Source of the DNA: Zhihengliuella sp. ISTPL4
GTDB lineage: Bacteria > Actinomycetota > Actinomycetes > Actinomycetales > Microbacteriaceae
NCBI RefSeq assembly: GCF_002848265.1
Contig: NZ_CP025422.1
Coordinates: 1,456,727-1,520,726 of the forward strand
Length of the DNA: 64,000 bases
Direction: 5' to 3'
A model generated the notes under the pieces. That model saw only the letters and a program-made list of their open reading frames with translations, was not told where the DNA came from and ran no database searches. The translations under genes were made by a program, and so were the position numbers. This document shows, in pieces, positions 27,838-34,277 of the stretch; position 1 is the stretch's first letter, and the number at the start of each line of letters is the position of its first letter.

Positions 27838-28743
27838 ATGCCCGAAAGCACTCAGATGAACACACAGGTACGCCGCCAAGTCGCGGACGAACTGGGCCTC
27901 TACGTCTACATGCTCGTCGATCCGGAGTCCGGCGTTCCGTTCTACGTCGGGAAAGGGCGTGGGGAGCGCTACAGCACTCATGGGACGGACGCGATGCTCG
28001 CCGCGGCCCTGGATCCTGACGCGACAAGCGAGAAGATCAGGAGAATCCGAGCGATACGTGAGGCCGGCCACGAACCCGAGATCTGGATCGTCCGTCACGG
28101 GATGAGCTCCCAGAAGGAGTACACAGCGGTCGAGGCTGCATGCATCGACCTCCTGCGCTCGATGCCTGTTCTGCCGAAGCACTCCGGCGCTTCGAGGCTT
28201 CCCGAAGGGCACGCGCAACAGCTCTCGAACGCCCGGCGCGAGGCGTCGAGCGGGCACGGCATCATCCGCCTGGAGGATCTCTACGAGGAGAAGGCTGCGC
28301 CACTACTCACCACGGACGAACCACTCCTGATCGTCTCCCTCGGCGGCTGGGTCGACAGCCCGGAAGTCGCCGTCGATGGTTCCGAACTGACGGGTTACGG
28401 ATACAAGAACGCATGGCTGACACGAGCCGAACGCCTCAAGCATCTTCCAGAGATCGGCCACTCCGCGTCGAAGTGGTTCAAGTTCACCGAGCGCGAGGTG
28501 GAAAAGCGCGGAATCGAGTTCGCAGTCGCCGCGCATCGCGGCGTGACCCGCGCCCTCTTGAGAATCGAACCGGGTTCATGGAAGCACATCGGCGCGGGCC
28601 CAGAGCGCCGGAGCGGTTTCCGGTTCGAGATCGTCACCGAAGGTCCACTGTTCGATGAAGTGGTCGGCGAGTACGGCCACCGGCTGCCCCCGAAGAAGCG
28701 GGGCGAGCAGTCGACGTTCCGCTACTGGCCCTACGGCCGGTGA
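27838..28743 (+). CDS. LEM-3-like GIY-YIG endonuclease-domain protein
   Basis: 301 residues; AAGGAG lies 6 nt before the ATG. The N-terminal nuclease domain shows the GIY-YIG pattern: Y22-V-Y24, F35-Y-V-G-K-G40, Arg44, His48 and a later acidic residue in EAACIDLL, as in the LEM-3 branch. The C-terminal 170 residues (LLIVSLGGWVDSPE..., GYGYKNAWLT, FAVAAHRGVTRALLRI) are of unknown function. It ends 11 bp before the left direct repeat of the neighbouring island, so it may belong to an older insertion at the same site or to DNA-defence functions. Confidence 0.75.
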   Translation: MPESTQMNTQVRRQVADELGLYVYMLVDPESGVPFYVGKGRGERYSTHGTDAMLAAALDPDATSEKIRRIRAIREAGHEPEIWIVRHGMSSQKEYTAVEAACIDLLRSMPVLPKHSGASRLPEGHAQQLSNARREASSGHGIIRLEDLYEEKAAPLLTTDEPLLIVSLGGWVDSPEVAVDGSELTGYGYKNAWLTRAERLKHLPEIGHSASKWFKFTEREVEKRGIEFAVAAHRGVTRALLRIEPGSWKHIGAGPERRSGFRFEIVTEGPLFDEVVGEYGHRLPPKKRGEQSTFRYWPYGR

Positions 28744-28754
28744 ACCGCGACGCG

Positions 28755-28779
28755 ATCAGTTGTTGAAGCGGAACTCCAC
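28755..28779 (+). repeat. Left attachment repeat (copy of the ychF 3' end)
   Basis: 25 bp identical to 34253-34277. Read on the minus strand it encodes V-E-F-R-F-N-N-stop, the C-terminus of YchF. The match ends exactly there: the next base differs from the ychF copy. Confidence 0.85.
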
Positions 28780-28950
28780 CGGGTTCCGCCACGGATACAC
28801 CTCTGGCGAGTCACGGGTTTCGTCGAGCGACCCTTCCAACTCACTCGTCAAGTTGAGCGGAATCTCCGCTACCGAACAAGAGTTCGCCGTTGCCTTTGCT
28901 AGGACTCCTAGCCCTCGTTGACCGATCCGTGTACATTTACAGTTGGGCGG

Positions 28951-29046
28951 GGCGCATTTGGAATGCGGCTCGGTTCGCCGAGTGAGTACCGGGTTCGACT
29001 CCCGGACGCCAGAAGGCATGTCTCGAACATGCCGTCCGGCGTCCGT
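28951..29046 (+). ncRNA. Candidate structured RNA with a tRNA-like 3' half, upstream of a HEPN gene
   Basis: Four hairpins are packed in about 95 nt: CGCATT/AATGCG (28953-28967), CTCGG-TTCG-CCGAG (28969-28982), a 5-bp stem with 7-nt loop TTCGACT (28989-29005) identical in form to a tRNA T-arm, and an 8+7-bp hairpin (29003-29010 with 29038-29045, inner 29015-29021 with 29027-29033). The third and fourth share three bases, so they are mutually exclusive. A weak promoter (TTGACC at 28918, TACAGT at 28938) would start RNA near 28950. No matching 5' acceptor strand is found, so it is not a standard tRNA. It could be an RNA antitoxin, leader or att remnant. Confidence 0.4.
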
Positions 29047-29056
29047 GAGTAGATCA

Positions 29057-29767
29057 ATGACCAGTTACCCCAGCAGCCCAGCGTTCAGCAAGCACACCGA
29101 CAATTTACGCGCTATCACCTCAGCGCTCACGCAAGTGGAACGAACCCACAAACGCGCAATCCGCGAAAGCGACGAGCCAAGTGAAAAGGCAATGCGCATC
29201 GTCCACACACTCCTTTTGGGCGTCTACGCTGAGGCCCGGCTCCGCAAGATCTTGGAGGACCCAACCGGCTTTAACGCCCGTGAGCGTCAGCTAATCTGGC
29301 TTGAAAAGAGCCAGGACAAGCGCTGGCTCGCCTCTGTCGACTTTGCAGCACGCCGCCACTACAAGGTGATGTCACATCAGGATCTCAGCGAGGTCGCTCC
29401 ACCTCAGGCGTTCGACCGCATTGAAACGATTTCAGCTCTCCTACGGCATGACCTAGCTCCAGTGATCACCGATCGAAACAGGTTGGCGCACGGACAGTGG
29501 GTCCATCAGCTAAGAAGCCGTAGCGAGGACACGTTCACCGATACTTCCGTCAGCTTTGACTACAACTATGTTGCGCTTGACGCACGGAAGCAGTTGCTCG
29601 ATTTCATCGCGCGAATCGTGAACGTTCTTGCTGTGTCCGAGCCTACGTTTGACCGGGATTTCAGTGACCTCATGGAAAAGATCGGGCGGGTGAAGGCGAG
29701 TCTTAGCGGCGACCGCTACCCACAGTTCGCCTCGCAACTGCGTGGTACGAGGCTCAACGCTGGGTGA
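29057..29767 (+). CDS. HEPN-type protein of the ychF island
   Basis: 236 residues from the ATG at 29057, which follows the structured RNA by 11 nt. All-helical. The HEPN RNase signature RX4H is seen as R140-NRLA-H145 in TDRNRLAHGQW, at the expected place before the last helices. HEPN proteins of this type are toxins or abortive-infection RNases. No antitoxin protein is adjacent; the upstream structured RNA is the only candidate partner. It converges with the second HEPN gene. Family beyond HEPN not recognised. Confidence 0.55.
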   Translation: MTSYPSSPAFSKHTDNLRAITSALTQVERTHKRAIRESDEPSEKAMRIVHTLLLGVYAEARLRKILEDPTGFNARERQLIWLEKSQDKRWLASVDFAARRHYKVMSHQDLSEVAPPQAFDRIETISALLRHDLAPVITDRNRLAHGQWVHQLRSRSEDTFTDTSVSFDYNYVALDARKQLLDFIARIVNVLAVSEPTFDRDFSDLMEKIGRVKASLSGDRYPQFASQLRGTRLNAG

Positions 29768-30185
29768 CTAGCCGGTCCATCCGGCGCGACCATGCAAGAG
29801 TGTGCACATTAGCCAATCGCCCGACGAAACATGACTGGAGCTTCTGCTCGTAGCAAGAGACACGCGCGCGTCTCGATCTGGCACGCGTTCCCATCCAACC
29901 TGGTGATCGAACGGGAAGTGATCTCGCCTCAGCCACCGACGCTGCGATCAGGCTGCCGACACCGCCGATCCAGGCAGACACAACCGCACCCCAGATGTCG
30001 GGCCCCCTCAAGCTCGGACCAAAGCGAGTGCGAGACACACGTCCGCTCCAGCGGCGACTGAAGCCCCGTCCAACCTGCACGCTGACGCACGATGTGCGCC
30101 GACACGTTGGACCGAAGCTCCACCAAGTTCCGGCACATACCAACCTGTGGTTGCGTGACCGACGCCCGTACTGATGTCGACGCGA
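29768..30185. other. Spacer between convergent HEPN genes
   Basis: No supported gene. A minus-strand frame ending at 29754 contains a hydrophobic stretch (DIWGAVVSAWIGGVGSLIAA) that might be a small membrane protein from a TTG start, but there is no ribosome site. No terminator-like hairpin was found. Confidence 0.3.
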
Positions 30186-30872
30186 CTACGGCACGAGCTC
30201 GAGGTCTGGCTTCGGCTCGGCGGCCAGACCTGACCGTTTGGGCTCGGGCCATTTTGGCAGATCTGCGGCGCGCCCACCGTACGCGACCACACTTTGCGAT
30301 GCGAGGTCACAGCATGCCTGGATGAATCCCTCGGCACCCATGAGGCGCATCGAGTTTCTGCCATCCGCGAGCGGCCAGAGCGCGCCCGATTGGTTTGAAA
30401 CCGAACGAGGATCCTGACCATGGTTCAGAAGATCTCGCAGAGATTTCATGTCAGCAAGGTACGCGTTGAGCTGTTGCGTTCCGGAGTAGACAACCCAGCG
30501 AGAGCGCCGCCCGGGTCGATCCTGAAGAAGTGCTCGGGTTCGCACAGCCCATACGTTCGTGAAGAGGCGAACGTCGTGCTTTGCGCCTGCGTCACGGAGT
30601 CTGCCCGGGTTCAAAGGGATGACCCGTGTGTCGTCATTGCCTCTCAATATGTCGTTGAAGAATGCTTCAATCGCCCCATAGGCCATCGTGAACACCGCCC
30701 AGCGCAAGGCGTGCTGCTTCTTGGACTGCCCAAGCCTATTGCCGTCGTCATCGTGCAGCTTGTCGATATCACGATGAAGCGTGACGAGGCGACAGGGGTT
30801 CTCAAGACCATCGGCAAGTTGCTGGGCAGCATCAATCACGTGAGGCAACCGTACGTGCGCCTCCACAGGCAT
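30186..30872 (-). CDS. Second HEPN-type protein, downstream of the GHKL ATPase-nuclease
   Basis: 228 residues from the ATG at 30872, with AGGAAGGAG directly upstream. Helical core with WAVFTMAYGAIEAFFNDIL (typical first HEPN helix, with Tyr and Glu) and the RX4H motif R146-DLLN-H151 in KSLRDLLNHGQDP. The C-terminal 30 residues are Pro/Lys-rich and probably disordered. It starts 34 bp after the GHKL-nuclease stop and is surely cotranscribed. Probable role: an RNase effector controlled by the ATPase (inference). Confidence 0.6.
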   Translation of the reverse strand: MPVEAHVRLPHVIDAAQQLADGLENPCRLVTLHRDIDKLHDDDGNRLGQSKKQHALRWAVFTMAYGAIEAFFNDILRGNDDTRVIPLNPGRLRDAGAKHDVRLFTNVWAVRTRALLQDRPGRRSRWVVYSGTQQLNAYLADMKSLRDLLNHGQDPRSVSNQSGALWPLADGRNSMRLMGAEGFIQACCDLASQSVVAYGGRAADLPKWPEPKRSGLAAEPKPDLELVP

Positions 30873-30906
30873 GCTCCTTCCTTTCGAAACCAGGTGGGCA
30901 CCCGAC

Positions 30907-32874
30907 CTAGCTCGGATCGTCCTCCGAGAACAGCCCCTCGGGCAGCACGTCTGCATGGTGCTCGTGAAGGTACCGCTTGACGTCGAGGAGGGAGGCATCG
31001 TGCTGCAATCCGCGTTTGTAGTAGAGCAAGCGCTGGTCCGCGGACTCGAGGATCTCCGACCATCGACGCACCCAGACCCGGTAGCGCAGCGGGGAGTTCG
31101 GGTCGAGCTCTGACTCGTCGAGCAGCCCCGACTCGCGGCCACGCTGGTTGATGTCGCGCCGCACGTCGTTGTTGTAGTCGTTCACAACGAGCACGAAATC
31201 CCATACGGTGTGGGTGCCAGCAAACTGCGGATCCTCGACGATGGCGCGGGCATAGCCCTTGATCTGGTTGGCCTCCTTGTACGACGCAACCACAGAGGGC
31301 GCCTTCAACTCAACGACCAGATGCCGCTTCGTCTCGTGCTCAGGCGCGCCCAGGGAGAACATCAGGTCCAGGCGGCCTTGGCTGCCGTCGGTCTTGGTAA
31401 CCTTCGTAGTGGGCTCCCCTTCGCGGCCAAGCACGCTGAGGTGCTGCTCGAGCGCTCGAGTGAGACCGATCTCCGAGCTCATCATGTTGAACTGCTCCCC
31501 GAACACCCAGCTCTCGCGCTCGAGGATCTTGTGCAGGTGGTCGCGTTCCTTGACCAGTCCCTTAGCTTCGGGGTTGAAGACGATCTCGCGAAGAGCGCTC
31601 AGGAAGTCCAGGCGGTCGGTCACATCGGTAGTCGCCCGAATGAGCCTTGAGAGCGGGGTGCGCTCAAGCAGCCGATCGAGTTCTTCGCTCTCACCGTCAG
31701 TGAGCCCCACGTACTGGTCCAAGAGCGTCTTCACACCGTCGGGATTCCGCTGGAGCGTGTCCTTGAGGAGACCCAGCGTCAGCTTCTCCTGGTCGCGCTT
31801 CTTGGGGATGTGCCGACGCACAGCGGTCGCGATGACGTCGAAGGTAGCTCGTTCGACCACCTCTTCTTCCGAGGCAGGATCGCCTTCGTAGGGGTAGGTC
31901 TTGGTCTCTTTCCAGCGTCCGACGAGCTCGCGACGCTGCTCGGCACGGCGAGCCTCGAAGTGGTCCTCGAGCGTGGAGTCCACGACCTGCATCAGGGATC
32001 CGAGCAGGGAGGTCTCCTGCTCCATATCGACGAGCAGCACCTCATTGGCATGCTCGGCCATGTCCTCCCAAAGGACGTACGCAGCGAAGTTGAAATCGGC
32101 ATAGCGCCTGATCGGCGTCTCATCGACAGGAACCCCCTTCTCGTCGCAGAGATAGAGCGTCCGGCCTTTCACGTCCCGCCATTCGACGACCTTCAACTCC
32201 GCTCGGCGATCGACGCCGTCGTAGGACCACTTCAGCTCGTGTGTCCTTTGTCGCTCGATGCTTGCGGCAGGGTCGATCTTGACTCCGTCGTACCGGACGT
32301 CGATCGTCGGGAAAGTCAGCAGATGCAAAGCAAGGGCAGCACCAATGCGCGGCCGCGCAGCGTCGCTTTCGAGGCGGCCAAGCGAGTCGCGACCTTCCGC
32401 TCGGAACTCGGTATAGGTCGGCCCCTGGGCATCGACAGGGTCGGGGCCGGAGAAGTCGTTGCGATGATGAATGGTCGACGAAACTCGAGTTTTCTTGAAC
32501 GCGCCCGTGGCATCCTGGCCAACGGTCTCCCATGTGATGCGGGTTCCCAGCGCGAAAGCGCGCAGCCGCCCCTGGCCAAGCCTGCCGTGCAGGGGCCGCT
32601 TCTCACGCTCGGTAACGCGCGCCCCGAGCTTCCAGGAGTTCCCCACCCACTTGAAGTCCTGCTCGACGCGTTCCGGGCTCATGCCGAGGCCGTCGTCGCG
32701 AACGGTGACGCCAACAATGCCGTCCGCGAGGTTGCGGTCCAGAGTGACTGACACCTTGTTGGCGTCCGCATCGAGGCTGTTCCAGATGAGCTCGATGACC
32801 GCTCGGATAGGATCAGCCTCACCGGCGAGGCGCTGGACCAAGTCGTTTCCAGCGATGAGCGCAATTCGAGGCAT
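30907..32874 (-). CDS. GHKL (Hsp90/MutL-like) ATPase fused to a PD-(D/E)XK, Shedu-like nuclease
   Basis: 655 residues. The Bergerat ATP site is complete: N-box E28-LIW-N32 with Asp35, D60-DGLGM, and the lid GRLGQGRLRAFALG (97-110). Next is a transducer-like region (to about 300) and a helical linker with ERDHLHKILERESWVFGEQFN, a pattern like the entry helices of DUF4263/SduA nucleases. The C-terminal nuclease has Asp503 (RLDLMF), Glu522-Leu-Lys524 (VVELKAP) and Gln537 (NQIKGYAR). It should sense DNA or another trigger through ATP-driven dimerisation and cut nucleic acid. Start at 32874; GAGG lies 2 nt upstream, so initiation may be weak. Annotated family names for this full architecture are not known to me. 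Confidence 0.75.
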   Translation of the reverse strand: MPRIALIAGNDLVQRLAGEADPIRAVIELIWNSLDADANKVSVTLDRNLADGIVGVTVRDDGLGMSPERVEQDFKWVGNSWKLGARVTEREKRPLHGRLGQGRLRAFALGTRITWETVGQDATGAFKKTRVSSTIHHRNDFSGPDPVDAQGPTYTEFRAEGRDSLGRLESDAARPRIGAALALHLLTFPTIDVRYDGVKIDPAASIERQRTHELKWSYDGVDRRAELKVVEWRDVKGRTLYLCDEKGVPVDETPIRRYADFNFAAYVLWEDMAEHANEVLLVDMEQETSLLGSLMQVVDSTLEDHFEARRAEQRRELVGRWKETKTYPYEGDPASEEEVVERATFDVIATAVRRHIPKKRDQEKLTLGLLKDTLQRNPDGVKTLLDQYVGLTDGESEELDRLLERTPLSRLIRATTDVTDRLDFLSALREIVFNPEAKGLVKERDHLHKILERESWVFGEQFNMMSSEIGLTRALEQHLSVLGREGEPTTKVTKTDGSQGRLDLMFSLGAPEHETKRHLVVELKAPSVVASYKEANQIKGYARAIVEDPQFAGTHTVWDFVLVVNDYNNDVRRDINQRGRESGLLDESELDPNSPLRYRVWVRRWSEILESADQRLLYYKRGLQHDASLLDVKRYLHEHHADVLPEGLFSEDDPS

Positions 32875-32980
32875 GACCTCAGTGTGCCAGTTGGCGGCGA
32901 CACACGTCGCGACCGCGGCGCGGCGCGCAGGCGGTCCACGGACCACGGGTTGCTCTCGCTTCGCTGCCAGGCGAAGGGGC

Positions 32981-33532
32981 CTACTCCAACGGCTGGATCC
33001 GTGGGTTGGATCGCGGAGGAAGATCCCAGCCGTGACGTGCATGGATGTCCTGCACCAGCTCTTCCGCGTTGGCCTGGAGCTTGGCAAGGGCTTCCGCGTC
33101 GTGGCCGGCTGACCGGAGATGGCGCAGGTTGCTGCTCAGCGCGTGCGACCAGCTCATCAGAGGGTCCAGGTTCCGCACCCGCCGTTCAACGGTGTCGCCG
33201 GGCTTGGCTGCCTCCATGACCTGTCGGCCGATGGCCGCGCCCAGCGTGCGCTCGGCCTCCAACCACGGGTCGATGCCGTCCCAGCCGTCGAGCTGGTCGA
33301 CGAGCGCGATCGACGTGATGCGCAGGTTGGCCAGCCGCTCCCCCACCGGCTCTGCGATGGGATCGAATCCGATGAGACGCTGCACGGCTTCCTGCACCGC
33401 GAACCAGCGTGCATCCTCGGCCGCCTTGCGCGACTCGGCGAGAGCCTCCTTCGCGCGCTTGTTTGCTTGGTAGGTGCCGACGCAGGCGACCACTAGCGAA
33501 ACGGCCGAGATCACCAGTGGGAGGACATCCAT
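32981..33532 (-). CDS. Membrane-anchored helical protein of unknown function
   Basis: 183 residues. One N-terminal membrane helix (VLPLVISAVSLVVACVGTY) is followed by a basic coiled coil (ANKRAKEALAESRKAAED) and a helical cytoplasmic domain. No catalytic motif is visible. It is on the same strand as, and 106 bp upstream of, the GHKL-nuclease, so it may be the first gene of that operon and anchor or regulate the system at the membrane. Confidence 0.55.
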   Translation of the reverse strand: MDVLPLVISAVSLVVACVGTYQANKRAKEALAESRKAAEDARWFAVQEAVQRLIGFDPIAEPVGERLANLRITSIALVDQLDGWDGIDPWLEAERTLGAAIGRQVMEAAKPGDTVERRVRNLDPLMSWSHALSSNLRHLRSAGHDAEALAKLQANAEELVQDIHARHGWDLPPRSNPRIQPLE

Positions 33533-34252
33533 GACTTGATCCTGCCATGTCGCTCAGACGCAGCGAAGCGCTCTTGGCCACTGCCGGCGGCCCCAGGTAC
33601 CGGGCAGAATCTCCGAGTCGCTCAGCGACCTCCTGCGACAGGTGACGCTGAATGCGGAGACCACGCACCTGCGATCCCACCACCTTCTTCAGCGGTTCTG
33701 CCACCTTTCCAGCCTCAAGGTTGGCAGTCATGACTTCCAGGAAGTTATCGCCTCACACTTCAAGCAACGTCGGCTCGAGCAACCTCGCGCCTCTCAGTCA
33801 CCGCATCGGCGAAGGAGGAGACTCGTGCAGGCACCAGACGCCCCCCTCACGGTTCATTCATCGCACCACGAGAGCCCGGGCGCTCGCTCACGAAACCCCG
33901 GCGGCCATGTTCGAGGACGCACAAGAAGAATGCTCCGCGAAGACTGAACGCCGATCACCGGCTCCGAGTTTTTGAGACGCGTCGAATATTGAGGCAGCAG
34001 GTTCAGGCCTCGACGTACCAAGAACATCCCCCGAGCGCCACGTGAAGGGCGCCAGAGCTCGCGCTCGTGGGATGACACGGGACATGCGGCCAGCTTCGCA
34101 GTATCCGACGGCGCGACGCCTATTGAGACAGCCACATTGTTGTCTACCTGCGCCGCCTCACGGCTCGACTCACGATCAAATGTTGGATCAAAACTCACGA
34201 CTGCGTGGAAGTCTTCACATTGCAGAATGCAAAAGTCCTGATCAAAGGCAAA
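33533..34252. other. Right part of the ychF island without a clear gene
   Basis: A minus-strand frame from the ATG at 33731 begins MTANLEAGKVAEPLKKVVG and IQRHLSQEVAERLGDSARYLG, protein-like for about 45 residues before it degrades, so it may be a gene remnant. Another minus-strand frame (34288 to 33854) starts inside ychF and crosses the junction; it is probably spurious. Nothing else supported. Confidence 0.3.
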
Positions 34253-34277
34253 ATCAGTTGTTGAAGCGGAACTCCAC
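34253..34277 (+). repeat. Right attachment repeat within the ychF 3' end
   Basis: Second copy of the 25-bp direct repeat; it contains the last seven codons and stop of ychF on the minus strand. Integration left ychF intact. Confidence 0.85.

Follow-up and report, generated by a model that had tools for sequence, protein, structure and literature searches.

The island under study occupies positions 28755-34277 of a 64,000-nucleotide stretch (hereafter the window) of the 3.53-Mb single-contig genome of Zhihengliuella sp. ISTPL4 (contig NZ_CP025422.1), and its features are collected in Table 1. The present work concerns mainly its first gene, which codes for the HEPN-type protein HEPN1, and the small tRNA-like RNA preceding this gene; that the two recur together in many bacteria and also in some archaea and viruses suggests a toxin-and-RNA module not described so far. 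A first, sequence-only reading of this DNA had described an island integrated at ychF between perfect attachment repeats, with four genes, one of them a HEPN-type gene behind a structured RNA. All four open reading frames are present as described, and the RNA turned out to be the tRNA-like element. The island itself is borne out by the repeats and by its G+C content, which is 0.618 versus 0.689 and 0.703 in the 20-kb flanks. The right repeat forms the end of the ychF reading frame, which runs on the minus strand and codes for a protein ending in VEFRFNN. Even with 3 mismatches allowed, no third copy of the repeat was found within the window, chance predicting 0. No integrase was seen by eye among the island open reading frames, no family search for integrases having been made.

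Table 1. Features of the island, in window positions; the HEPN1 gene and its RNA come first, followed by the repeats and the other genes.
Feature	Position	Strand	Remarks
tRNA-like RNA	28946-29010	+	match to the covariance model R1; parsed into acceptor, D-arm, middle hairpin and T-arm
Acceptor strands	28946-28950 / 29006-29010	+	from the parse
D-arm	28953-28967	+	from the parse
Middle hairpin, UUCG loop	within 28968-28988	+	6-bp stem, 4-nt loop
T-arm	28989-29005	+	from the parse
Competing hairpin B	29003-29045	+	formed by the acceptor 3' strand and the segment right before the HEPN1 start
Candidate -10 box TACATT	28932-28937	+	ends 8 nt before the RNA; weak alone, score 8.5 against a shuffled mean of 8.3
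HEPN1, likely ribonuclease, 236 aa	29057-29767	+	behind the tRNA-like RNA; E59 and R140 invariant in 70/70 homologues
Left attachment repeat	28755-28779	+	perfect 25-bp copy of the ychF 3' end; 25/25 identical, 0 expected by chance
Right attachment repeat	34253-34277	+	is the ychF 3' end
HEPN2-like protein, 228 aa	30186-30872	-	passenger; no link to the HEPN1-RNA module shown
GHKL ATPase, possible C-terminal PD-(D/E)XK-type nuclease, 655 aa	30907-32874	-	passenger
Small protein, hydrophobic N-terminus, 183 aa	32981-33532	-	passenger; no credible family match

The first relatives of HEPN1 came from one plasmid each of Rhodococcus (48% identity) and Kovacikia (31%) and, more distantly, from a congener (22%), and a tRNA-like sequence lies just upstream of each of them. 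The association was then counted at 93 HEPN1 loci picked by protein alone, 13 of them on viral contigs (found with a four-protein alignment) and 80 in genomes (the best 80 of 86 found with a 16-protein alignment). Their taxa include Actinomycetota, Pseudomonadota, Bacteroidota, Bacillota, Chloroflexota, Planctomycetota and Myxococcota as well as the archaea Methanosarcina and Methanolobus. A tRNA-type T-arm, defined as a stem with a TTCRANN loop in a zone from 350 nt upstream to 30 nt into the protein match, was present upstream of HEPN1 in 84/93 loci versus 90/3855 control windows (2.3%) from the same DNA. Nine loci gave no such T-arm: in L088 and L092 the upstream DNA is shorter than 100 nt, L054 matches only in part, and L044, L045, L057, L059, L067 and L080 are real misses. 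These loci without upstream RNA occupy three places in the tree (L044/L045; L059/L067/L080; L057).

A covariance model, R1, was built from 13 seed RNAs selected for alignability. At E <= 1e-3, it gave a same-strand upstream match in 78/93 loci and in 65/80 held-out ones, with one tRNA-like unit per HEPN gene. The window RNA, which lies outside the model, was found too (36.6 bits, E 6e-9), as were those of L003, L005 and L124, and that of L004 at E 0.67 only. The remaining matches (E <= 1e-3, 894 kb) were ordinary tRNAs according to ARAGORN (window 61614, L030, L040, L091), a second RNA in L049 and the RNA of L057. In L049 (1791-2588, Olleya), a second HEPN paralogue stands directly behind its own tRNA-like RNA. 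R1 fails to separate these RNAs from tRNA, since 98/98 genomes were matched at E <= 1e-5. The distances between HEPN proteins and those between RNAs were correlated over the 56 members common to both sets (rho = 0.56; permutation maximum 0.16), also for pairs below 35% identity (rho = 0.28; permutation maximum 0.12). By this measure, the RNA is co-inherited with the HEPN gene in Bacteria and Archaea.

The folding energy of the window stretch alone is unremarkable (z -1.41; 17/200 shuffles fold equally well); the evidence for its structure is comparative. The 89 T-arm-bearing RNAs analyzed came from the window, L003, L004, L005 and, with the T-stem rule slightly relaxed, 85 of the 93 loci. In 85 of them, the succession of a 5-nt acceptor, a short linker, a D-arm with GG loop, a middle region, the T-arm and a 5-nt acceptor could be parsed, a descriptive count as the elbow features (D-loop GG and TTCRANN T-loop) are required by the parser. 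Acceptor and T-stem of 44 aligned RNAs showed 96.6% standard pairs (66.0% in shuffles) and 127 double-change cells (32.0 in shuffles); these RNAs were chosen for alignability from 61 and the two stems were also used in picking them, so that the counts lean towards them. In the 13 seeds, double changes were observed at 12/19 pairs, across all four stems.

The same parser formed both outer acceptor pairs in 54/54 ordinary tRNAs, some of which are near copies, and in 0/78 of the tRNA-like RNAs. As these two pairs never form, the acceptor is considered to be of 5 bp. It is followed by CCA in 5/78 RNAs. Moreover, the middle arm of 64/77 RNAs is too short (less than 17 nt, 51 RNAs) or even-numbered (13 more) for a 7-nt loop on a 5-bp stem; 12 others could fit such a loop and one has no hairpin. 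Arm and acceptor lengths were used in place of a count of loop sizes (7-nt loop absent in 85), which proved unsound: the parser gives 3-nt loops for 25/54 ordinary tRNAs. RNAs with a mis-parsed or unclear 5' half (L019, L049, L055, L023, L027, L004 and L053) stand outside the acceptor, promoter and co-inheritance counts; these seven and L003 were omitted from the arm-length and leader-fold counts (n = 77). As compared at the sequence level, the element is thus a reduced tRNA with a 5-bp acceptor, a GG D-arm and a canonical T-arm and, mostly, with no room for an anticodon loop.

At gathering score, the window element matches no Rfam family and, in a 201-base search at loose thresholds, its sole tRNA-type match was tRNA-Sec (17.4 bits, cut-off 47). 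The RNA of L028 reaches the Rfam tRNA family in a 181-base search (29.7 bits, cut-off 29); over the window and 14 loci, no family other than tRNA was found at gathering score. Nine RNAs (L066, L074, L076, L077, L078, L082, L090, L094 and L097) represent a variant whose acceptors are mostly GGGGG/CCCCC and which lacks hairpin B; it is nearer to ordinary tRNAs, L077 scoring 38.4 bits to Rfam tRNA, and its seven members present in the tree form one clade with L084.

It is hardly credible that the element is a decayed tRNA gene or an attachment-site remnant that stands before HEPN1 by accident. Mobile elements often integrate in tRNA genes and ARAGORN calls several of these RNAs odd tRNAs. However, their side and orientation with respect to the HEPN gene are constant in 78/93 loci, the uniform 5-bp acceptor, the covariation and the co-inheritance with HEPN contradict decay, and the integration site of the island is ychF and no tRNA.

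The 3' strand of the acceptor is shared with a second structure, hairpin B, which played no part in picking the RNAs. A stem of at least 8 uninterrupted bp is found in 71/83 RNAs, window included (14.6% after shuffling of the downstream part), and one of at least 10 bp in 65/83 (1.6% of the shuffles), L019 and L049 being omitted from this set. Hairpin B overlaps the acceptor by at least 3 nt in 70 of these 71 cases, and the tRNA-like fold and hairpin B are mutually exclusive. The 12 RNAs lacking it are nine with a GGGGG acceptor and three from archaea. In 65/77 leaders, the predicted minimum free energy fold uses hairpin B, with a median advantage of 13 kcal/mol over the tRNA-like fold. The hypothesis of a terminator was rejected, a T-run following hairpin B in 3/70 loci only (the 70 have a called start and a hairpin B of at least 8 bp; L019, L049 and L003 omitted). 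A Shine-Dalgarno-like tetramer was detected in 27/70 loci and begins inside hairpin B in 15, which lends weak support to an occlusion of the Shine-Dalgarno sequence. On the other side of the RNA, the -10 box of the best sigma-70-like promoter ends 3-12 nt before the first acceptor base in 43/78 cases (10.9% in shuffles), and at 7-8 nt in 34/78, window included. The probable start of transcription is the first acceptor base.

Two readings compete for these observations. In the one that we prefer, detailed below, the RNA restrains HEPN1 as a tRNA mimic. In the other, which we hold for less probable, the element is a cis leader only, where the alternation of the tRNA-like fold (start open) and hairpin B (start closed) would set HEPN1 translation; the signal, with the same limited likelihood, would be HEPN1 itself or tRNA-binding or -processing factors, and there would be no free antitoxin RNA. 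The predicted promoters, which put the RNA at the extreme 5' end of the HEPN mRNA, agree with a cis leader, as do the exclusive folds and the 3' end of hairpin B, located 0-20 nt ahead of the called start codon in 50/70 loci. The scarcity of Shine-Dalgarno-like tetramers and the lack of hairpin B in the GGGGG group and in archaeal members speak against it. Furthermore, the full RNA of L057 (3657-3720, minus strand) and a hairpin-B-like stretch lie on the opposite strand beside HEPN, in convergent orientation, and cannot be its leader. This one rearrangement speaks for an RNA able to act in trans.

HEPN1 of the window carries the motif RNRLAHG (Rx4-6H), preceded by a conserved acidic residue. 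The 70 proteins compared are that of the window and 69 of 75 non-redundant ones (L021, L035, L050, L088, L092 and L094 omitted). Next to the two invariant residues listed in Table 1, N141, A144, H145, G146, Q147 and W148 are likewise invariant in all 70, but these belonged to the locus search pattern; since this bias touches the enzyme evidence and not the RNA association, the odds of the readings are unchanged. In L021 and L022, a GTG occupies the position of the called start codon, which supports this start. The predicted structure is mainly helical, with a predicted local distance difference test score of 95.2, and its best five structural matches comprise four HEPN proteins, one of these a HEPN toxin; from HEPN-like structures missing in the Foldseek or VIA-align lists no absence is concluded. 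HEPN1 (P0005) matches phrog_12663 (E 4.1e-30). It reaches no curated HEPN family above cut-off and has no match at E <= 1 in Pfam, PADLOC and NCBIfam, in agreement with the sequence-only reading, which knew of no named system for this gene set. HEPN_RiboL-PSP is matched at E <= 0.1 by 6/68 relatives (best 1.1e-4), and a search of the PDB sequences with the 68-sequence profile gave nothing below E 0.19. Taken on its sequence, HEPN1 is likely an RNA-cutting enzyme.

Several Cas13 and Csx1/Csm6 models are weakly matched by 2/68 homologues each (best E 7.6e-5). These matches would be compatible with an RNA that activates or guides HEPN1 or is a cofactor needed by it, in the way CRISPR RNA serves Cas13. 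We regard such a role as improbable, for the RNA displays a compact tRNA fold with covarying stems and no variable guide-like segment was seen in it.

The 93 loci contain near copies: 92 full-length HEPN1 proteins, of which three (L004, L005 and L124) come from outside the 93, reduce to 75 at 80% identity. HEPN1 is present in 2/58 genomes of near relatives, the window's own being one, and phrog_12663 was detected across 149 genomes of the phylum in that genome only. Single-sequence HEPN1 searches of phages, viral contigs and genome contigs found none. Besides the viral contigs, the carriers include plasmids (2 records) and a prophage region of E. coli NH-21, presumably Qin-like, where a full-length HEPN1 copy and its RNA (L124 8045-8108) accompany dicB, ydfD and rem; the L124 query was covered to at least 80% in 2/5426 E. 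coli genomes. In six phage records of E. coli, 1W among them, a remnant of the HEPN1 family (L020 4001-4417) is situated between sitA and the integrase, near an icd fragment, and this region is matched in 299/5426 E. coli genomes.

With regard to INDEPENDENCE and mobility, the largest cluster of neighbour genes codes for a site-specific recombinase (by eye, 9 loci). The others among the 25 largest clusters concern at most 4 loci each and, judged by eye, consist largely of phage genes from a small number of related prophages; a UmuC/UmuD-like pair (by eye) lies beside HEPN1 in 3 loci. No widely recurring partner gene was found among these 25 clusters. The nature of its carriers makes an anti-phage role of the module plausible.

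The other island genes were also considered. HEPN2 carries the motif RDLLNHG, with a sub-threshold match to a HEPN family (Pfam, E 0.12). The GHKL protein matches PF13589 (E 3.8e-16) and phrog_6203, a phage family of unknown function (E 4.8e-57), and it matches the BbrUII/HgiDII restriction family in the ATPase part only. It had been read as a GHKL-nuclease fusion; the GHKL part holds, while for the C-terminal nuclease there are a by-eye D...ExK-like pattern and a sub-threshold match to HSDR_N_2 (E 0.22). Among the models of PADLOC 2.0.0, none matched P0003, P0001 hit PglX only (E 0.043) and P0002 had weak partial matches only (best 8.3e-7, over residues 26-117).

The sequence-only reading went further and took the four genes as one new anti-phage system, a view to which their presence on one island between perfect repeats lends some weight. 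Relatives of the GHKL protein were found, with some match, in 17/198 genomes of the order, its own included, strongly in four others, and in 52 plasmid records; nine neighbourhoods were analyzed, four from genomes and five from the plasmid records, and among the latter the neighbour genes change. HEPN2 has a single relative in the other 197 genomes of the order (L132 6177-6851, 51%). Single-sequence tblastn (E <= 1e-3) in flanks of a few kb did not reveal a second island gene near any of the nine GHKL loci, the 93 HEPN1 loci or the one HEPN2 locus. Thus the proposed survey of GHKL homologues brought out no recurrent HEPN partners at the nine loci and, within this sample, a conserved four-gene GHKL-HEPN system was rejected for lack of co-occurrence; we judge such a system very improbable.

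The HEPN2 relative of L132 belongs to a genome of a different family within the order. A distance of 175 nt separates it from the ychF 3' end, of which no repeat was seen there, and the other island genes were not found. In 3 of the 22 congeners examined, one to three tandem cassettes of 0.5-2.6 kb stand at the ychF 3' end, each ending in a near-copy of the 25-bp core (L198: 3124, 3667, 4156 and 5014; L199, reversed: 2751, 5335 and 6232; L200: 2147 and 2860). Similar sequence follows some inner cores and likewise the left copy of the window (28755). Within the genus, the ychF 3' end has the appearance of a hotspot for integration, and the cassettes are perhaps a non-autonomous family moved in trans. 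Just outside the left repeat, 27838-28743 codes for a LEM-3-like GIY-YIG protein whose residues 10-128 match PD-T4-3 of PADLOC (E 4.8e-22).

HEPN1 and its RNA form a two-component architecture, for which we infer a mechanism close to that of type III toxin-antitoxin systems: the RNA, as a tRNA mimic, may restrain the HEPN ribonuclease. We give this proposal about an even chance and rank it above the cis leader, itself above the activating cofactor. The transcript would begin at the first base of the RNA. A dimeric HEPN1 would recognize the tRNA elbow, which the RNA would present without anticodon loop or full acceptor with CCA, thus acting as an uncleavable decoy that keeps HEPN1 off. Hairpin B would cap the HEPN1 output per transcript and decide which transcripts hold the folded mimic. 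An infection that halts host transcription or destroys the RNA would free HEPN1, which could then cut tRNAs or tRNA-like elements, so that growth would stop ahead of phage release. The decoy is favoured because the elbow common to all tRNAs is preserved in the RNA and the parts used by tRNA-cutting ribonucleases are mostly missing from it. HepT trims tRNA 3' ends.

ToxN has a beta-rich fold, whereas the HEPN1 model is mainly helical. The HEPN1 module shares with the type III systems ToxIN, TenpIN and CptIN the place of the RNA, immediately ahead of the toxin gene and in the same orientation, here in 78/93 loci. Type III antitoxin RNAs are described, in the part of the source consulted, as tandem repeats with a Rho-independent terminator before the toxin (PMC12373285); the HEPN1 module, in contrast, has one RNA per gene without tandem repeats, and no T-run follows hairpin B in 67/70. 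According to the same part, the AbiF/RCd22 pair of Clostridioides difficile is phage-encoded and has a structured non-coding RNA that precedes the gene of a HEPN-related toxin, binds this toxin and neutralizes it (PMC12373285). This arrangement is similar to that of the window, but RCd22 has two abiF hairpin motifs, as reported there, where the window RNA has a tRNA fold. HEPN1 differs from AbiD/AbiF by the absence of an Abi_2 match, PF07751 being found in 1/68 homologues (E 0.017).

To our knowledge, no RNA element belongs to the HEPN/MNT toxin-antitoxin systems. In these, a protein partner reportedly neutralizes the toxin by oligoAMPylation (title of a study cited in PMC11090510). PrrC and RloC are HEPN ribonucleases that cut the tRNA anticodon loop in phage defence and are regulated via restriction proteins or their own ATPase domain, the consulted part of that source mentioning no RNA partner (PMC3710099); they share with HEPN1 the HEPN-type ribonuclease acting on tRNA, a target that is only proposed for HEPN1. 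The yjdF riboswitch also has a tRNA-like fold in a bacterial leader, where it controls translation, but it binds azaaromatic compounds, as stated in the part consulted (PMC9142559). Its relatedness to the present RNA was judged only by the absence of non-tRNA Rfam matches in the searches reported above. No description of a tRNA-like RNA with a HEPN toxin was found in open-licence PubMed Central by title and abstract start, a corpus that leaves subscription papers and bioRxiv mostly outside.

In its general form, the proposal is that of a widespread and so far undescribed class of toxin-RNA pairs in Bacteria, Archaea and their viruses, where an anticodon-less mini-tRNA, transcribed from the toxin promoter and unmade by a competing hairpin, would be the antitoxin of a tRNA-cutting HEPN protein; we hold this for possible, with a likelihood somewhat short of even. 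If it is true, another RNA class would join the short list of antitoxin RNAs, with mimicry of the toxin's own substrate as neutralizing principle, and a target would be predicted for a HEPN family that has no named-family match in the libraries searched. The odd tRNAs called beside unknown genes could then belong to conflict systems.

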